44,531 bases of DNA. Source: a virus. Below, piece after piece: positions 10,777 to 29,935 of this stretch (positions within the stretch are counted from its first letter, which is position 1; each line of letters opens with the position of its first letter). The position numbers were made by a program, and so were the translations under genes. The stretch lies in the IMG/VR virus record IMGVR_UViG_3300037297_000050, positions 1 to 44,531 of that record, one strand, 5' to 3'. The notes below the pieces were generated by a model. That model ran no database searches, was not told the origin of the DNA, and was given only the letters and a program-made list of their open reading frames with translations.

Positions 10777-12782
10777 TATCTTCTACCTGTAAAATTAAGC
10801 CAAAGCTTAACCTCTCGGCTTTTCTCTCTTTCTTCAAGTTCGATTTCTTTTTGAAACCATTCGGGACTACCATAAACATTCTGAGCAAATTCGTGTGCAG
10901 CTTTGGACTGGTCTTGTGCAGCAAGACAACATAAAGCATCGGCAACACATTTATCACCATGCGCAGCTTTTGCGCCTCCTGAATCTTCCATACAACTCGA
11001 TAATACTATTTTGCTGCCACTAAATATATAATCCTCAGCCTCAGTCAAAGCTTCGCCGTCAGGATTGATAAATTTCTTGGCGTTCATTTTAGGTCGAAAA
11101 CAAGCTGTCATAGCTGCATTATAAGCGGCAAATAACTGTAAAAGATTATTGGTATTGTTCCACCATCCCAAAATCTGTGATTTTTGATGAAAACCTTTTT
11201 TCTCAGAAGTAGATTTACAGATAAAGGAATATCCAAGCTCTTTAATTCGCTTCAAAAATACCTGTCCGATTCCATTGGCTTCTGGATTAAGCAATGGTTC
11301 GATAGATAACCCGCCCACCCAATGACCAATGGCATATACTTGTTCTGCAAACTGTTCCGGCAATGTATAAGCATCTGACCACCGACCTACTTTTCTTCTT
11401 TCATCTACATCGAATATTGAACAGACAGAATTAGATTGTCCCTGCCCTAATGATATATCACAACCAAGAACATAATTGCGATTTTGCAATGGCCTTAATC
11501 CACCCAATTCTCCCCACCATTTCAATCTGCCTTTTCCACCTGCAAGAAATTTGATATTACTGATTTTATTATCATAGCAGTTGAATATTATCTCGCCTAT
11601 GGCAGTAGGTTTCCTGACATATTGTGATTGCATTTGATTGATAGTAGCGGGAGTAAATACAGCATCGCCAGCACCTATCTCATTACCATCAAGATTAGTT
11701 GCTGTGTCAAGTTCGGCACGCTCTGCTTCCTGTTTATCATACCAGGGTGAACGCCATTTAGGTTTGTTTGGTTGTCCACCATCAGCAACAAAAGATATTT
11801 GCATTTCTGGATATTGATAAAGAATCTCAGTTTCGAGTTCTGAATAAACTATCTCTTTGCCATTTTCATATTTATTAAATACCTTCGGCGCAATCTCTCT
11901 GTAATAATCAATATCCTCTATAATGATTTTATTTATATCAGGAGACCAATACAATCCTTCGGCTTTGAATGGATGTAACCACCAACCAAGGAATTTCGAG
12001 TTTACCCCCTTGGAACGCCCTATCACACTAAAAGGATGCTTTCGATACATAGATGTCCCGACAAATATTCTACACGAAGCCGTGTCGGTAATGGCCCTGT
12101 CCATAGAAGCGGCAATGTCATGCTTAACGTCCTGAAACTCATCGAAGAAAGACCATGCTCTACGACCACTTCGACCAATGGCCTCGATAGTAGCTTCGCC
12201 ATCAATCACGTTTTTGTTCCAAAGATTCTTCAAATGTCTATCGGTTCTTTCAAAAGCAGGAGCACACCATTCAGGGAGACTGTTTAGAAGAAAATCCAGC
12301 TTGTAAAATAAAGTATCAGGATTTCCTCTCTTATCAACCTTTTCCTCTTTGAAAGAAGAAACAAGTCCATAAACGCCAGGTGTGAATAACCATAAATTAA
12401 ATCCAACACCAAGGACTATCCATGTAATCCCTATTTCACGGGACTTTCTTCTCTGCCACTTACCTCCATTAAGCATATACCAATTCAATTCCTCTATTTC
12501 ATCATCCTGCCAATCCCAAGTAATAAAAGGCAATACGCCACAAGGTTTGATGTTGGGCTTGGGCTGTTCAGTCCAGAAGAGCGTCTTAAATGCAATTTGC
12601 GGTTTTAAACGGCATTTCTCTACAAAATCATTCCTCACCGTTTTTGTCGCTTCCGACAGGTAGCTGTGCAAGTCCATCCTGAACAGGATGTTTTGCTTCG
12701 GCTCTGTCGGTATTGCCTTTAAGAACATCTCTTCCGAGAGATTCAATAACCTTTCTAACTCTTTGACTTGGTTCGCTGTCAT
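10776..12782 (-). CDS. terL: Terminase large subunit (ATPase and nuclease)
   Basis: 668 residues. The N-terminal ATPase has a divergent Walker A (KSREIGITW, residues about 113-121) and a Walker B (AWSFFDEFQDV). The C-terminal RNase H-type nuclease shows GCDISLGQG, then EPLLNPEANGIG, then the late AAHGDKCVADALCCLA with catalytic Asp. It packages DNA together with the small subunit and portal. AAGGAT lies right beside ATG 12782. The first 155 bases overlap the end of the small-subunit gene in another frame, an unusually long overlap. A later start at residue 36 (MDLHSYL) would remove most of it but has no better RBS. Confidence 0.95.
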   Translation of the reverse strand: MTANQVKELERLLNLSEEMFLKAIPTEPKQNILFRMDLHSYLSEATKTVRNDFVEKCRLKPQIAFKTLFWTEQPKPNIKPCGVLPFITWDWQDDEIEELNWYMLNGGKWQRRKSREIGITWIVLGVGFNLWLFTPGVYGLVSSFKEEKVDKRGNPDTLFYKLDFLLNSLPEWCAPAFERTDRHLKNLWNKNVIDGEATIEAIGRSGRRAWSFFDEFQDVKHDIAASMDRAITDTASCRIFVGTSMYRKHPFSVIGRSKGVNSKFLGWWLHPFKAEGLYWSPDINKIIIEDIDYYREIAPKVFNKYENGKEIVYSELETEILYQYPEMQISFVADGGQPNKPKWRSPWYDKQEAERAELDTATNLDGNEIGAGDAVFTPATINQMQSQYVRKPTAIGEIIFNCYDNKISNIKFLAGGKGRLKWWGELGGLRPLQNRNYVLGCDISLGQGQSNSVCSIFDVDERRKVGRWSDAYTLPEQFAEQVYAIGHWVGGLSIEPLLNPEANGIGQVFLKRIKELGYSFICKSTSEKKGFHQKSQILGWWNNTNNLLQLFAAYNAAMTACFRPKMNAKKFINPDGEALTEAEDYIFSGSKIVLSSCMEDSGGAKAAHGDKCVADALCCLAAQDQSKAAHEFAQNVYGSPEWFQKEIELEEREKSREVKLWLNFTGRR

Positions 12783-13807: not shown

Positions 13808-14154
13808 TATGTTTCTCCTTGTGCCTCAACTGGAACAGCTTCGTCAGTTCCAGAAGGATTAGAATAAGAACTTTTTGGCGGCCTGCCTGGGCCACGTTTT
13901 TGCGGTATATTTTCTCCAGCATTTTCGCCTGGAATCTCTTTTGTCTTTGTTATTGGCTTTGCCCCCAATCCTTTTGCCACACAATTCCAGCACCAAACCA
14001 TGCCGGTTTTTTCTTTGCCAAACTCATCCTGAAATTCTTTAAGTTGCTCAGCTTGTTTAGGATTCAAATGTCCTCTCACTCCCAATACAAAAGCAAACAA
14101 GCCGCGTGTAACATCTTTTCCGCAACCTTCGCATATCATTCTTCCTGTAATCAT
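13807..14154 (-). CDS. Zinc-ribbon protein with an AT-hook-like motif
   Basis: 115 residues. N-terminal CEGCGKD and later WCWNC give two Cys pairs, a likely zinc ribbon. The C-terminal KRGPGRPPKSS contains an AT-hook-like GRP core, suggesting DNA binding. The final part is acidic and probably disordered. It is in the first part of the late operon, upstream of the terminase genes. A regulatory or packaging-accessory role is possible, inferred from motifs only. ATG 14154 follows AAAGGAATAAAAA. Confidence 0.65.
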   Translation of the reverse strand: MITGRMICEGCGKDVTRGLFAFVLGVRGHLNPKQAEQLKEFQDEFGKEKTGMVWCWNCVAKGLGAKPITKTKEIPGENAGENIPQKRGPGRPPKSSYSNPSGTDEAVPVEAQGET

Positions 14155-16443: not shown

Positions 16444-16480
16444 ATTTTTACTCCTTTGGTGAGCCAAGTGATTTATTACC
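16444..16480 (-). repeat. NHLAH leader element, copy at 16.4 kb
   Basis: Thirty bases (16444-16473) are identical to 31909-31938. A 24-base core (16457-16480) also occurs at 22007-22030. It encodes MVINHLAHQRSKNSD from ATG 16482 and contains a TTGG-CTCA-CCAA mini hairpin next to AAGGAG. Confidence 0.7.
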
Positions 16481-19175: not shown

Positions 19176-19204
19176 TTGACAAATATAACACAATACTATA
19201 TAAA
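19176..19204 (+). promoter_or_regulatory. Rightward sigma70-like promoter
   Basis: TTGACA (19176-19181), 17-base spacer, TATAAA (19199-19204), near consensus. No gene starts nearby. The transcript would first make the 19242-19275 hairpin and then the C-rich tract. Confidence 0.6.
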
Positions 19205-19241
19205 TCCCGCCATAAATAAGCTCCTACTCCTCCTCTCCAGA

Positions 19242-19275
19242 ACCATTCCTGGTTTCATACACAGCCAGGAATGGT
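19242..19275 (+). other. Leader hairpin downstream of the rightward promoter
   Basis: Perfect 11-bp stem (19242-19252 with 19265-19275), 12-base loop, about 30 bases after the predicted start. A C/T-rich stretch with CCTCC lies just before it. It is followed by A-rich rather than T-rich sequence, so it is not a typical terminator on this strand. Confidence 0.5.
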
Positions 19276-19500: not shown

Positions 19501-19537
19501 GGTGGCATCTACCCGACACCTTCTGCATTCTAATAAG

Positions 19538-19577
19538 CTTGATAAACTTATCAAGTGTTTATCAAGTGTTTATCAAG
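19538..19577. repeat. TTATCAAG repeat cluster (operator or iterons)
   Basis: CTTGATAA (19538-19545) faces TTATCAAG (19548-19555). Two more direct copies follow at 19559-19566 and 19570-19577, so three copies sit exactly 11 bases apart. The word is the complement of the GTTGATAAG element found at early promoters. Confidence 0.65.
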
Positions 19578-19632
19578 TACTCTAAAGTCCCATAAGTCTT
19601 TTTTCTTAAATAATTTAAGTTTTTATTTTGAT

Positions 19633-19674
19633 TTGCCGATTTATTGATTATGCTTTTAATAGCGTGTTGATAAG
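19633..19674 (+). promoter_or_regulatory. Early-type promoter with GTTGATAAG element
   Basis: TTGCCG (19633-19638), 16-base spacer, TTTAAT (19655-19660), then GTTGATAAG at 19666-19674, where transcription should begin. The same arrangement occurs at 20943 and 22847. It precedes the small gene at 19704. Confidence 0.45.
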
Positions 19675-19703
19675 TAGAATCAAATCAATTAAGGGGGTTT
19701 AAA

Positions 19704-19817
19704 ATGGGTTATTATGAAGTTGATATCATCAATCCGGCTGTAATATTTGGGGCCATAGCTGTAATCCTGGCTGTTCCAATAGCTGCAACATGGATTTTTT
19801 ACCGAATAATGCGGTAA
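19704..19817 (+). CDS. 37-residue single-span membrane peptide
   Basis: MGYYEVDIINPAVIFGAIAV followed by a hydrophobic run ILAVPIAATWIFY and a basic end RIMR: one predicted transmembrane helix. A strong RBS (AAGGGGG) precedes ATG 19704. It lies behind the early-type promoter at 19633. Function unknown; small membrane peptides of this kind in early phage regions can affect host membranes or defence. Confidence 0.6.
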   Translation: MGYYEVDIINPAVIFGAIAVILAVPIAATWIFYRIMR

Positions 19818-19822
19818 CCTGA

Positions 19823-20066
19823 ATGAAACATAATTCCTTATTATTGGACGTTTATGTTGTAAGTGTATTATTAACAATAACTTACGGCAAGTGGTGTTAC
19901 ACCACAAACAAAAGTAAACAATCTTGTTAAGTATCTTTTATCCCGCGCAAAAGACTATGACAACGAGGATGAGTTCTTTAATTGGGCAAGAAAGCAATTG
20001 CAACAGGGATTGCGGAATATCGGTGATTCATCATTCTTTGTCGTCAAGTGGCCAAAAATAGCTTAA
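19823..20066 (+). pseudogene. Probable small coding region lacking a clear start or frameshifted
   Basis: From 19881 to the TAA at 20066 a frame encodes a protein-like sequence (NNLVKYLLSRAKDYDNEDEF, NWARKQLQQGL, SSFFVVKWPKIA) but has no ATG, GTG or TTG start. A different frame opens with ATG 19823 (MKHNSLLLDV) and stops at 19930, overlapping it. A one-base change could join the two. Codon pattern and the terminator directly behind suggest a real but damaged or unusually started gene. Confidence 0.35.
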
Positions 20067-20087
20067 AACCCTTTACTCCTCTATCAT

Positions 20088-20110
20088 AAGCCCAAGGATG
20101 GGCTTTTGTG
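20088..20110 (+). terminator. Intrinsic terminator
   Basis: Seven-base stem (20088-20094 with 20099-20105), AGGA loop and a T-rich tail (TTTTGTGTTT). It closes the short rightward unit that starts at 19633. Confidence 0.65.
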
Positions 20111-20137
20111 TTTCTTATAACAACATAAGTAATTGTG

Positions 20138-20240
20138 ATATACTAATGCTTTTACCGATGTTAATATAGGCAAGTTTACAGTTGTTAACAGGTATGAATT
20201 TGTTACGTTGTGTTACAAATGTTCAAATGCATTAGTATAT
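20138..20240. repeat. 12-bp inverted repeat enclosing GTTAC repeats
   Basis: ATATACTAATGC (20138-20149) and its exact complement (20229-20240) are separated by 79 bases. That stretch holds GTTAC at 20202 and 20212, ten bases apart. The stretch 20241-20362 is very AT-rich and gene-free. Confidence 0.55.
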
Positions 20241-20316
20241 TATTATATAAAACCTAAGAATGGTATAAAAGATTAATATTATATAATACTATAGTATTAC
20301 TCTGCTTCTGCTATAG

Positions 20317-20351
20317 GTTACGGAGGGGTTACAAGTGTTACGAATTATTAC
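20317..20351 (+). repeat. GTTAC/TTACGAA iteron-like cluster downstream of the initiator-like gene
   Basis: GTTAC occurs at 20317, 20328 and 20337. The last belongs to GTTACGAATTATTAC (20337-20351), which matches GTTACGAAAAGTTAC on the other strand at 20777-20791. Confidence 0.5.
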
Positions 20352-20362
20352 AAAATATTGAT

Positions 20363-20767
20363 TTATTGATTAAAAGCTTGATTTTTGTTGTTGCATTGCT
20401 TTATTTTTTGGTTTTTTCGATATTCTCTCATATATTCTGCTCTGGTTCTGGTTTTTTTGCGATACATTGAGTAGTTCAATATTTGCCAACCTCCTTGAAT
20501 TTTAGATATTCTCCGTCCCTCGTTGTCTGGTGTTCTGCTTGATGCGTCTGGTGATTCTAAAATATGAATTGCTTTTTTACAATCATCAAGCTTCATTCTT
20601 GCCTGATGAGCCAGGCCGTCAATAGAAGCCCCCACTTCTCCGTATCTGTTAGCCAGGGCCAGCATGGTAATCCATACGATTCTTGTTTTATCATCCTCAT
20701 TCCAAATTGATGAAGTCAATATCGTATTGAATAATTTAGTAAAACCTGATTCATGCATGAGTAACAT
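20363..20767 (-). CDS. Winged-helix replication-initiator-like protein (phage O N-terminal type)
   Basis: 134 residues. FTKLFNTILTSSIWNEDDKTRIVWITMLALANRYGEV, GASIDGLAHQARMKLDDCKKAIHIL, then GRRISKIQGGWQILNYSMYR is the pattern of small phage replication proteins with a winged helix domain like the N-terminus of lambda O. A basic tail follows (KKTRTRAEYMREYRKNQKIK). Start ATG 20767 has no clear RBS; residue 4 is another Met. It is flanked on both sides by GTTAC/TTACGAA repeats and has its own promoter and palindrome, as expected for an initiator next to its origin. DNA binding at these repeats is inferred. Confidence 0.7.
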   Translation of the reverse strand: MLLMHESGFTKLFNTILTSSIWNEDDKTRIVWITMLALANRYGEVGASIDGLAHQARMKLDDCKKAIHILESPDASSRTPDNEGRRISKIQGGWQILNYSMYRKKTRTRAEYMREYRKNQKIKQCNNKNQAFNQ

Positions 20768-20815
20768 TATATATGTGTAACTTTTCGTAACAAGTGTAAA
20801 TTACGAAAATATTAC
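20761..20815. promoter_or_regulatory. Operator/iteron region upstream of the initiator-like gene
   Basis: TTTTCGTAA (20782-20790) and TTACGAAAA (20801-20809) form a 9-bp inverted repeat. GTAAC occurs at 20761, 20777 and 20787. The repeat overlaps the predicted start of the leftward promoter 20811-20840, suggesting autoregulation. Confidence 0.55.
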
Positions 20816-20840
20816 ATTTTTTACAAATATTTTTCGTCAA
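20811..20840 (-). promoter_or_regulatory. Leftward promoter of the initiator-like gene
   Basis: TTGACG (20835-20840), 18-base spacer, TGTAAT (20811-20816). AT-rich surroundings. Confidence 0.45.
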
Positions 20841-20902
20841 TATATAGTGTTTTGTGTTCGGTATTCTTATTAAAACCCACAATATGTTGTGCAATGTTAT
20901 AT

Positions 20903-20918
20903 TTGTTGCGTGCAACAA
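20903..20918. promoter_or_regulatory. 16-bp perfect palindrome, likely operator
   Basis: TTGTTGC-GT-GCAACAA lies midway between the two divergent promoters at 20811 and 20943. This is where a repressor or activator could act on both. Confidence 0.5.
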
Positions 20919-20942
20919 TATTAATTTAGGTAAAGTTTGTTC

Positions 20943-20986
20943 TTGCATTTAGCCGATAGATTGTTTATACTTTCTATGTTGATAAG
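20943..20986 (+). promoter_or_regulatory. Main early promoter with GTTGATAAG element
   Basis: TTGCAT (20943-20948), 17-base spacer, TATACT (20966-20971), then GTTGATAAG at 20978-20986, on the expected start site. It lies upstream of the 21024 gene and the rightward early module. Confidence 0.6.
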
Positions 20987-21023
20987 TTATTAATTTCCAC
21001 AAAATTAATAAGGGGAGAGAAAA

Positions 21024-21239
21024 ATGGATAAGGAACAATTCAAAGCAAAAAGAAAAGAGCAATTGAGGGACGTAATACACACCTTGCGGAATATTTTAAT
21101 CACTGTAAAGGTTTTCAACACAGACGAAAACCAGTGGGATTATTGCACCGATGCCGAATTGTCGGACCTTGCCGCCGTAGCAGCAACAATCGCAGAAGAC
21201 ATAAACGACATAGTACACCAAAAAGTTGCAGTTGAATAA
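21024..21239 (+). CDS. Small acidic early protein
   Basis: 71 residues; AAGGGGAGAGAAAA precedes the ATG. MDKEQFKAKRKEQLRDVIHTL begins a helical protein; the middle has KVFNTDENQWDYCTDAEL and the end is an acidic helix LAAVAATIAEDINDIVHQ. It is the first gene behind the early promoter, a position often held by host-takeover factors. No family is recognised. Confidence 0.65.
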   Translation: MDKEQFKAKRKEQLRDVIHTLRNILITVKVFNTDENQWDYCTDAELSDLAAVAATIAEDINDIVHQKVAVE

Positions 21240-21246
21240 ACCCCCC

Positions 21247-21292
21247 AGCCCTGCAATATAGCTTTTTGCCGGATAGCTACCGGCCCAGGGCT
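21247..21292 (+). other. Two-level hairpin after the first early gene
   Basis: Outer stem AGCCCTG/CAGGGCT (21247-21253, 21286-21292) encloses GCCGG-ATAGCTA-CCGGC (21268-21284), followed by a T-rich TTGTTTG. It may be a weak terminator or an mRNA-stabilising element that lowers expression of later genes. Confidence 0.5.
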
Positions 21293-21338
21293 TTGTTTGA
21301 CAAGTAAACTATAACCTTAATTGAAAGGATAGGGTTAA

Positions 21339-21968
21339 ATGTGCAGACCAGCAAGTTTTGTGGTTACAAAAACAAAGGTGTTTTGGTCGCTTAATGATGA
21401 ATCGCACGAAACAATCATAGAAGAAAACAACCTCAAGGAAAGCGACATTAGGGGTAATTCTACTTTTGTGCGAGTTGAGGTTGTGCCTTCTGACAATAAT
21501 TACACTTTGCCGTTCAGTAAATGGAAATACTGCCTCGACCAAGACAATGTGCCAAAATGGTACGATGAGAAAAAAGTCGAAAAGCGTTGTCGGGCGAAAC
21601 TAAAAGAATGGCGAAAAGCTAAAATTGTTATGCCCGGTGAAGTGCGAGGGGGAATTGATATTGGGCAAATGGTGGCGATATACGGCACAGTGAAGTGTAT
21701 CTACGGCGGCACAGTGGAGTATATCTACGGCGGCACAGTGGAGTATATCTACGGCGGCACAGTGAAGTGTATCTACGGCGGCACAGTGAAGTGTATCTAC
21801 GGCGGCACAGTGGAGTATAAAACAGGAACCTTGCCAACTAAAATTACAGGCAACCCAATTATTGTTAATTATGGCTCATTGACAAAGGAAATTCTCCATT
21901 CATCTCAAGCTGTCTTAATTGACCGCACCAAAGACCCCTGTGTGTGTTATGTGGGCAAGGATAAATAA
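21339..21968 (+). CDS. Phage protein with a C-terminal IYGGTV tandem-repeat solenoid
   Basis: 209 residues; ATG follows GAAAGGATAGGGTTAA. Residues 1-112 (MCRPASFVVTKTKVFWSLND, HETIIEENNL, VRVEVVPSDNNY, LPFSKWKYCLDQD, WYDEKKVEKRCRAKLKEW) resemble a widespread early phage protein of unknown function. Then come six copies of an 8-residue unit, IYGGTVKC or IYGGTVEY, encoded by 24-bp repeats. Units like this stack into beta-solenoids. A closing region (NPIIVNYGSL, HSSQAVLIDR) follows. Repeat number probably changes by recombination. Confidence 0.7.
   Translation: MCRPASFVVTKTKVFWSLNDESHETIIEENNLKESDIRGNSTFVRVEVVPSDNNYTLPFSKWKYCLDQDNVPKWYDEKKVEKRCRAKLKEWRKAKIVMPGEVRGGIDIGQMVAIYGTVKCIYGGTVEYIYGGTVEYIYGGTVKCIYGGTVKCIYGGTVEYKTGTLPTKITGNPIIVNYGSLTKEILHSSQAVLIDRTKDPCVCYVGKDK
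21684..21819 (+). repeat. Six in-frame 24-bp tandem repeats
   Basis: Units begin with GGCACAGTG at 21684, 21708, 21732, 21756, 21780 and 21804. Two allele types alternate: one giving Lys-Cys (AAGTGT) and one giving Glu-Tyr (GAGTAT), in the order A B B A A B. Confidence 0.9.
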
Positions 21969-21989
21969 GCAAAAGGCCGAGGGGAAATA

Positions 21990-22037
21990 ATGCGAGAGTT
22001 AAAAAAGGCAATAAATCACTTGGCTCACCATAATTGA
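21990..22037 (+). CDS. 15-residue NHLAH peptide
   Basis: MRELKKAINHLAHHN with a strong RBS (GAGGGG). Its second half is the NHLAH element (22007-22030) also found at 16457-16480 and 31902-31925, each time downstream of an in-frame ATG. It may be a regulatory leader peptide or an RNA element that happens to be open. Confidence 0.4.
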   Translation: MRELKKAINHLAHHN

Positions 22038-22058
22038 TAACCTCTTAAGAGCAGAAAA

Positions 22059-22136
22059 ATGACAAGAAACATTATAAATAAATCAATTGAGGGTATAGTG
22101 CCTGAAATTAGAAAAGAAGTTGCGAGGTTAATATGA
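22059..22136 (+). CDS. 25-residue peptide coupled to the next gene
   Basis: MTRNIINKSIEGIVPEIRKE ending VARLI. AGAGCAG precedes ATG 22059 and the stop overlaps the ATG at 22133 (ATGA). This suggests a leader or tiny gene translated together with the downstream protein. Confidence 0.4.
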   Translation: MTRNIINKSIEGIVPEIRKEVARLI

Positions 22137-22483
22137 CAGACAGATATATTCTCACAGACAAAAAAGCCGTTCCTTGTGAAGATTTAATGAAGTGGGCCAA
22201 AGGGTTTGAAACTGCTGATAGAATAATAAAGCGAACTAATATTGGCATTCCTGCATGGAAATATTATTTGGGGAAGTTATTTAAAATCCGAAGGTTTGAA
22301 CCAGTCCTAATTTCAACTGTATTCTTGGGTTTGAATCATCGCTTTGGGGAAGGTTCGCCGCTTTTATTTGAGACAATGGTATTCGGCGGCAAATTAGATG
22401 AGGCGCAAGAGAGATATTCAACCTACGAAGAAGCTGAAAAAGGGCATGAAAAGATGGTTAATAAAGTAAAGGCGACATTATGA
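22133..22483 (+). CDS. Conserved early phage protein of unknown function
   Basis: 116 residues. YILTDKKAVPCEDLMKWAKG, FETADRIIKRTNIG, then STVFLGLNHRFGEGSPLLFE, TMVFGGKLDE and RYSTYEEAEKGHEKMV form a well-known conserved pattern in tailed phages of many hosts, with no assigned function. Start overlaps the stop of the 25-residue peptide; end overlaps the next start. An insert KYYLGKLFKIRRFE separates the two conserved parts. Confidence 0.75.
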   Translation: MTDRYILTDKKAVPCEDLMKWAKGFETADRIIKRTNIGIPAWKYYLGKLFKIRRFEPVLISTVFLGLNHRFGEGSPLLFETMVFGGKLDEAQERYSTYEEAEKGHEKMVNKVKATL

Positions 22484-22683
22484 AAGATAACAACGAGCAA
22501 AAAGAAAAAGTTTTTATATGTCCCTTGATGTCAGGGATGATGGTTGTACCTTCACCGCTTGGCAGGCCAGAAGTTGCATTAAATAAAGTTGCATGCATGA
22601 AAGAGGAATGCGCTTGGTGGCATGACGATGGAATGGACAACAAAATTTGTTGTATTTATTGGAAAAGTGTATTTACAAATTAG
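22480..22683 (+). CDS. Cysteine-rich small protein
   Basis: 67 residues. Cys-containing segments KVFICPLMSGMMV, ACMKEECAWWHDD and NKICCIYWKS suggest metal binding, perhaps an Fe-S or zinc site, of a kind common in small phage early proteins. ATG overlaps the previous stop. It ends at TAG directly before a strong hairpin. Function unknown. Confidence 0.65.
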   Translation: MKDNNEQKEKVFICPLMSGMMVVPSPLGRPEVALNKVACMKEECAWWHDDGMDNKICCIYWKSVFTN

Positions 22684-22702
22684 GAGTTTTCTCCCCCAAG
22701 TA

Positions 22703-22736
22703 AGCCAGGGCCATATCTGACAGTATGGCCCTGGCT
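22703..22736 (+). other. Perfect 13-bp hairpin without a T-run
   Basis: AGCCAGGGCCATA (22703-22715) pairs with 22724-22736 around an 8-base loop. Neither strand has a T-run after it, so it is not a standard terminator. It may protect or process mRNA. Confidence 0.6.
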
Positions 22737-22756
22737 ACAATTAAAAGGTGATTAAA

Positions 22757-22843
22757 ATGGAACAGATACTATATTTGGCATTGGCCGCCATAGCAGTTGT
22801 GGCTATTATTGCTTTATGCTTTGGCAAGAAATTTCCAAAATAA
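22757..22843 (+). CDS. 28-residue single-span membrane peptide
   Basis: MEQILYLALAAIAVVAIIAL then CFGKKFPK: one transmembrane helix with a basic end. Good RBS AAGGTG with 6-base spacing. It resembles the 37-residue peptide at 19704 in type. The promoter at 22847 starts right behind it. Function unknown. Confidence 0.55.
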   Translation: MEQILYLALAAIAVVAIIALCFGKKFPK

Positions 22844-22846
22844 TGC

Positions 22847-22891
22847 TTGACAGGCGAAAACAGAGATATATAATTTCCGACAGTTGATAAG
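22847..22891 (+). promoter_or_regulatory. Early promoter of the recombination operon with GTTGATAAG element
   Basis: TTGACA (22847-22852), 16-base spacer, TATAAT (22869-22874), both perfect consensus boxes, then GTTGATAAG at 22883-22891. It precedes the 23000 gene, the SbcC-like ATPase and recT. Confidence 0.7.
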
Positions 22892-22909
22892 CAATGGCAT
22901 AATTCCTCG

Positions 22910-22977
22910 GCTCCGGCACAAGATTAACTTATCAACAATCAAGCTCCTCCTCCGATTTTGTGCCGGAGCTATTTTTT
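22910..22977 (+). terminator. Terminator-like hairpin in the operon leader (attenuator)
   Basis: A 12-bp stem (22910-22921 with 22958-22969) encloses 36 bases, followed by TATTTTTT. The loop contains ACTTATCAAC, the complement of the promoter element, and a CCTCCTCC stretch complementary to Shine-Dalgarno sites. It sits between promoter and first gene. Confidence 0.6.
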
Positions 22978-28408: not shown

Positions 28409-28450
28409 TAATCAAACAGAACATAATTTTCATTATAGGACTTAATATTG

Positions 28451-29935
28451 ATGATTACCAAATTAACGCAAAAACAAATTGATAAAATACCATCTTATAG
28501 AGATAAATGGCTTGAAGTAGGCAAAGATACAACGCCTATTACTTATAATCAAGCAAGACCAATTATTGATGACTTATACACACAAATTTTAGGTTATGAA
28601 AAACCTTTGATAATAATAATGCCAAATCCAGTCTGGACATGGCACGCAACTGTTGTTTTACATGAGCTTGTCTCGCAGATTGACTCGCAGATTCGCTCGC
28701 AGATTCGCTCGCAGATTTACTCGCAGATTGACTCGCAGATTTACCCGCAGATTGACCCGCAGATTCGCTCGCAGATTGACTCGCAGATTCACTCGCAGAT
28801 TGACTCGCAGATTGACTCGCAGATTCACTCGCAGATTGTCTCGCAGATTGTCTCGCAGATTGACTCGCAGATTCACTCGCAGATTGACTCGCAGATTCGC
28901 CCGCAGATTGTCTCGCAGATTGACTCGCAGATTTACCCGCAGATTGACCCGCAGATTCGCTCGCAGATTGACTCGCAGATTGCCCCGCAGATTCGCTCGC
29001 AGATTGTCTCGCAGATTGACTCGCAGATTTACTCGCAGATTGACTCGCAGATTGACTCGCAGATTCACTCGCAGATTGACTCGCAGCTTGACTCGCAGAT
29101 TCACTCGCAGATTGTCTCGCAGATTGTCTCGCAGATTCGCTCGCAGCTTGTCTCGCAGATTTACTCGCAGCTTGACTCGCAGATTCGCCCGCAGATTGGT
29201 TCGCAGATTGAAAATTTTCTTTGGCCATATCTTGACGGGCAACTATGGGCAAGCTATTTCGGGTATTACGAATATTTTTTTAATGAGGTTGTAAAGTGCG
29301 AATGTGCAAAGTATTGTTATTTCAGGAATACGACCGCATTAAATCTAATATATCCACTCTCTAAAATATGTATCCTTAGCCAAAAACCTAAGTCAATACG
29401 GATGGTTAATGGTTTACTACACAACGAAAGCGGGCCATCCATCTCATTCGATGAGAATTTTTCTGTTTGGTCGCTGAATGGCGTTAGAGTACCGCAATGG
29501 CTTGCAGAAACAAAAGACACACAAATAAAACCAGAAAGAATTATTGAAATTGAAAACGCAGAAGTTCGGAGGGAATTTGTACGTAAGGTTGGTATTGAAA
29601 GAATATGCACGAAGTTGAAAGCTAAAATCCTCCATAAGTCAACAGATGGTATTTACGAATTATTAGAGCTTGATTTGAATCAAGGGCGGAAATGGAAATA
29701 TTTAAAAATGCGCAATATGTCTCTTTCAACCGATAATAATGATGTGTGGCATATTGAGGGTGTAAATAACAGATGCAGAACGATTCAAGAAGCATTACTA
29801 TACAGGATAAATGGCGAAAATAGGTACAAATATAATTTTGCTCCTGATGGAGACAACTGGCAGATTCACGGGGACGTAATTATAATACCAGAAGGTGCAA
29901 AGACATTGAAACCAAAACCACAACTTATAGCGTAA
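28451..29935 (+). CDS. DUF6745-type protein with 45 four-residue (x-S-Q-I) repeats
   Basis: 494 residues from ATG 28451; a TTG one codon earlier is not needed. The N-terminus [40 protein letters not shown] and the C-terminal half ([60 protein letters not shown]) resemble the DUF6745 family. Residues 74-253 consist of 45 x-[SP]-Q-[IL] units. The repeat part may be a coil or solenoid spacer. Function is unknown; the small GHAH protein downstream is its usual partner in related phages. Confidence 0.75.
28670..29209 (+). repeat. 45 exact-length 12-bp tandem repeats inside the DUF6745-type gene
   Basis: 540 bases = 45 units of N-N-C, [TC]CG, CAG, [AC]TT. The first codon varies (GAC, GTC, CGC, TAC, CAC, GCC, GGT), nearly always ending in C; CAG never changes. 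Because of the period all other frames are open too and produce false ORFs on both strands. Confidence 0.95.

Follow-up and report, generated by a model that had tools for sequence, protein, structure and literature searches.

A short word at the start sites of three early promoters in an uncultured phage: a candidate operator set

The control region of virus record IMGVR_UViG_3300037297_000050 raises the question of why one 9-bp word recurs where early transcription is predicted to begin, and whether a single protein could read it at all of these sites. We analyzed the whole virus sequence of 44,531 bases (the window). Leftward structural genes occupy 1–19 kb and 36.6–44.5 kb, and rightward early genes, including an SbcC-like ATPase, RecT, and a RuvC-like resolvase, occupy 19.6–36 kb. 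In the genome of one relative, genes from the two ends of the record are close neighbors; the record therefore probably represents a nearly complete genome in circularly permuted form. A 134-aa protein encoded in the control region has its nearest bacterial genome match in a Sedimentisphaerales MAG, and a Sedimentisphaerales-related host is therefore a guess.

The initial annotation had placed the word, GTTGATAAG, 5–8 bases past the -10 boxes of three rightward promoters, with complementary copies at 11-base spacing in 19538–19577 and another in a leader loop near 22927. All of these were recovered: the promoter copies at distances of 5, 6, and 8 bases, the cluster as three copies spaced by 11 bp together with an inverted one, and the loop copy at 22928–22936. 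The features are as follows.

19527–19554, minus strand: leftward promoter-like site from a consensus scan, TTGATA-16-TAGAAT, overlapping the word cluster
19538–19577, no strand assigned: word cluster, CTTGATAA-AC-TTATCAAG plus two more TTATCAAG at 11-bp spacing
19633–19660, plus strand: predicted promoter P1, TTGCCG-16-TTTAAT, weak, p = 0.012
19666–19674, plus strand: GTTGATAAG at P1, 5 bases past the -10 box
20943–20971, plus strand: predicted promoter P2, TTGCAT-17-TATACT, p = 0.0036
20978–20986, plus strand: GTTGATAAG at P2, 6 bases past the -10 box
22847–22874, plus strand: predicted promoter P3, TTGACA-16-TATAAT, 12/12, p = 0.0005
22883–22891, plus strand: GTTGATAAG at P3, 8 bases past the -10 box
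22909–22977, plus strand: P3 leader hairpin, terminator- or attenuator-like, with a 17-bp stem, a 28-nt loop, and six T
22928–22936, minus strand: reversed GTTGATAAG in the loop of this hairpin; the P3 RNA start is complementary to it

The p values derive from E. coli-like weights, taken from general knowledge, with scores ranked against all noncoding positions. Sigma-70-type hexamers at a spacing of 16–18 bases precede the word clearly at P2 and P3 and weakly at P1. P1 and P2 are alike upstream of the word and may thus be duplicates; P3 resembles neither, and all that the three share is the -35 box, the -10 box, and the word. Several rightward promoter-like sites lack the word, among them a strong one at 19176–19204 (TTGACA-17-TATAAA; judged by eye) and candidates at 20117 and 20820. 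Downstream of the 19176 site, up to 19537, some 300 bases rich in C and A contain no convincing ORF, and a hairpin lies near 19240–19275.

A search for the 9-mer over the genome, as had been proposed, returned five exact copies (19666+, 20978+, 22883+, 22928-, and 12330-), three of which lie just past -10 boxes; the two minus-strand copies have no promoter, and that at 12330 is within a coding region. When the five copies were shifted circularly, three promoter-downstream placements arose in none of 2000 trials. With simple sequence set aside in both the 9-mer and 7-mer rankings, GTTGATAAG is the only 9-mer with three promoter-downstream copies, and the core TTGATAA is the most frequent 7-mer in noncoding DNA. 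Allowing for the choice of any 9-mer, the best one reached three or more such copies in 11 of 300 circular shifts, a search-corrected probability of about 4% for the three-promoter placement. Noncoding DNA, as defined by our own ORF selection, contains 12 copies of TTGATAA (400 shuffles gave 2.4 on average and 8 at most) and four of GTTGATAAG (0–2 in shuffles). When one mismatch is allowed there is no excess (12 found, 12.3 expected), so the signal depends on exact matches and on where they are placed. In this genome the link between the word and promoter starts holds statistically.

In the cluster, TTGATAA begins at 19539 and TTATCAA at 19548, 19559, and 19570, and together these copies cover the -35 box of the leftward promoter-like site; an AT-rich stretch (19595–19660) adjoins them. 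The three promoter copies and three of the four cluster copies are oriented with transcription, while the leader copy is opposite.

Based on these observations, we assign a probability of about one half to the reading that (G/C)TTGATAA(G/A) is recognized, as an operator word, by a single regulator that binds DNA sequence-specifically. The link between word and start sites is most simply explained by a shared binding protein; we infer protein binding, repression, and one protein for all of the sites. Such a protein, sitting on the one copy that each of P1, P2, and P3 has at roughly +1 to +9, would prevent RNA polymerase from starting or escaping and so lower expression of the early module and of the recombination operon in concert. 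At the cluster, the three copies on one helix face and the inverted copy could support cooperative binding over the leftward -35 box, with the bound protein either repressing or activating leftward transcription. In favor of an operator set are the ranks of the promoters bearing the word, the uniqueness of its placement among non-simple 9-mers, the noncoding excess of TTGATAA, the 11-bp array with its inverted copy over the leftward -35 box, and the limitation of what P3 shares with P1 and P2 to the two boxes and the word. Against it count the weakness of P1, the promoter-like sites without the word, the reversed leader copy, which is inconsistent with a fixed orientation, and the half-site spacing, which is 2 bases in the cluster and 1 base at P2. 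The earlier proposal that one binder coordinates the control region, the early module, and the recombination operon thus keeps its statistical footing at the promoter starts, but it involves three promoters only, draws no support from relatives, and lacks a binder: none was found, and the phage proteins include no integrase, resolvase, or HTH_3 repressor match. A switch of this type is believable but ordinary among viral gene switches. As an operator set it would be small and concrete, in an uncultured phage and without a match in the phage records searched, and under it the early and recombination operons should be controlled in a coordinated way.

The only helix-turn-helix protein recognized in the control region is the 134-aa winged-helix protein, whose gene lies between P1 and P2; winged-helix folds matched it only weakly in a fold search, never at E below 0.001. 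Most of the 13 relatives of it that were examined carry short repeats just past the helix-turn-helix coding part, often with upstream copies, and many have a AGCAGAAGCAG run after the repeats. The repeat word varies among groups (GTTAAC, GTCCC, TGTAAA, GCGCAA, GTGAC, and others). The corresponding word in our phage is TGTAAC/CGTAAC, which flanks the 134-aa gene within 20200–20800; its count is no higher than in the shuffled null (4 against 4), and this assignment therefore rests on position and likeness. One relative (L006) is 257 aa long, and the 134-aa copy therefore looks truncated just before the repeats. This arrangement suggests that the protein initiates replication from an origin located at the gene encoding it. 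As a binder of GTTGATAAG we set it aside: the repeats found at this position in relatives are different ones, and since its own word is apparently TGTAAC, it probably does not bind GTTGATAAG.

Could the word instead mark replication? The 11-bp repeats next to AT-rich DNA would then belong to an origin, as iterons or DnaA-like boxes, and the promoter copies would be secondary sites of the same initiator. TTATCAACA is one base off the DnaA box TTATCCACA, and unrelated phages (L017, L019, L023, and L024) have similar 11-bp arrays, of TTATCAA, flanked in one of them by the DnaA-box-like TGTGGATAA and TTATCCAC. However, the TTATCCACA consensus is not matched and candidate host dnaA loci lack the word (the host itself being a guess): none of 25 genomes akin to G001, the source of L030, has a TTATCAA(C/G) array at dnaA; DnaA boxes were rejected on these grounds. 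Iterons fit poorly, as the probable initiator appears to have its own, different word, TGTAAC/CGTAAC, beside its gene, and three placements at promoter starts are unexpected for an origin. We regard a replication role as unlikely. A Fur-type box, considered by eye and from general knowledge, was set aside because its half-site spacing misfits. Slightly less likely than replication is chance combined with duplication, whereby a single promoter was copied to give P1 and P2, and the word turned up at P3 and in the cluster by coincidence in AT-rich DNA. The upstream likeness of P1 and P2, the modest search-corrected probability, and the missing excess at one mismatch all agree with this, but P3 is no duplicate of P1 or P2, and further signals come from the 11-bp cluster and from the excess of TTGATAA in noncoding DNA.

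The remaining alternative places control in the RNA, with the word forming the 5' end of early transcripts. In the P3 leader, GUUGAUAAG would pair with the loop word CUUAUCAAC, and P2 RNA would pair with the same loop in trans over 13 nt, tuning read-through into the recombination operon or its translation. The P3 hairpin has a predicted energy of -27.0 kcal/mol (z-score -3.2 against shuffles) and, as in an attenuator, combines a strong stem of 17 bp with six U, although its 28-nt loop is unusual and large for a terminator. The loop word is unpaired in the predicted ensemble; the duplex of the P3 RNA start with the loop is predicted at -8.9 kcal/mol, and that of the P2 start, a 13-nt exact inverted match, at -14.4 kcal/mol. 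As a possible anti-terminator only a 9-bp tail-to-loop pairing was seen, with a folding program that cannot handle pseudoknots. An Rfam search gave no match, and no relative with the P3 leader was found. RNA-level control also leaves the cluster over the leftward promoter, and P1, unexplained, and we consider it improbable. We give still longer odds to the early RNA 5' ends being regulatory RNA, that of P3 acting on its own hairpin loop and that of P2 in trans; if true, this would couple the recombination operon to early transcription. An attenuator role for the P3 leader, as predicted from its fold, is plausible and compatible with DNA operators.

Comparison with other phages lends the operator reading no conservation. 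The search of related phages that the initial annotation had called for covered relatives identified by RecT, by the 134-aa protein, and by terminase, and in none of those examined was the word seen at comparable promoters. Two phages with a 72% identical terminase and collinear structural genes do not use it at comparable places, and one of them has different repeats in the divergent region, about AGCAGGATAGTGTTA; control-region words can thus differ between phages keeping the same structural genes. In the relative G027 (L082), a tRNA-like sequence at 13990–14110 contains an unusually long internal stretch. No such word cluster is present in phages that share the SbcC-RecT block (L025–L027), searches with a 71-aa protein and the SbcC-like protein found no relatives, DNA and protein searches of phage records gave no match, and none of the titles listed in literature searches for the word was relevant. 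Among the phages examined, the word therefore appears to be this phage's own, as would fit a rapidly changing regulator, and conservation is lost as support. A consensus promoter followed by the word occurs in 28 viral contigs, representing about seven distinct promoters. In a degenerate control of 64 words, GTTGATAAG accounts for three of the 80 matches listed (1.25 expected under equal word use), and several other words equal or exceed it among those 80. As a general phage promoter class the word was consequently rejected, being not detectably enriched over the 64-word control in the matches listed.

Candidate operators of this kind can be compared with several known systems. In the phi29 p4-type switch, one protein with sites at early and divergent promoters turns early genes off and late genes on; sites at the early promoters and the divergent promoter here would give a similar early-off, late-on switch, but the word and spacing differ. 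PhoB/OmpR-type sites are 11-bp head-to-tail repeats over a -35 region, as in our cluster, but with another word, and the single copies at start sites are a further difference; among the phage proteins, none was identified as a regulator of this type. In the operators and stoperators of cluster A mycobacteriophages (L5), a short word in promoter and intergenic regions is read by one regulator, at more than 20 asymmetric 13-bp sites mostly oriented with transcription (PMC9283540). The repeated short word in our phage has a similar distribution and is likewise read as the sites of one regulator, but it amounts to five exact 9-bp copies and 12 noncoding TTGATAA, is placed at start sites, and has one reversed copy. 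A monomeric two-domain repressor of the cluster A type was sought with the HTH_3 profile only, which gave no match in this phage.

Other repeats and a long stretch lacking a convincing ORF occur elsewhere in the window. The stretch lies within the leftward arm (184–1470), and parts of it match coding sequence in relatives. The ORF at 21339–21968 contains 24-bp tandem repeats (21659–21843) encoding a repeated IYGGTV peptide, and that at 28448–29935 contains numerous SQI(D/H/Y/R) repeats. A near-identical stretch, AATCACTTGGCTCACCA, is present at 16458(-), 22017(+), and 31912(+), and is followed by AAGGAGTAAAAAT at two of these three sites.
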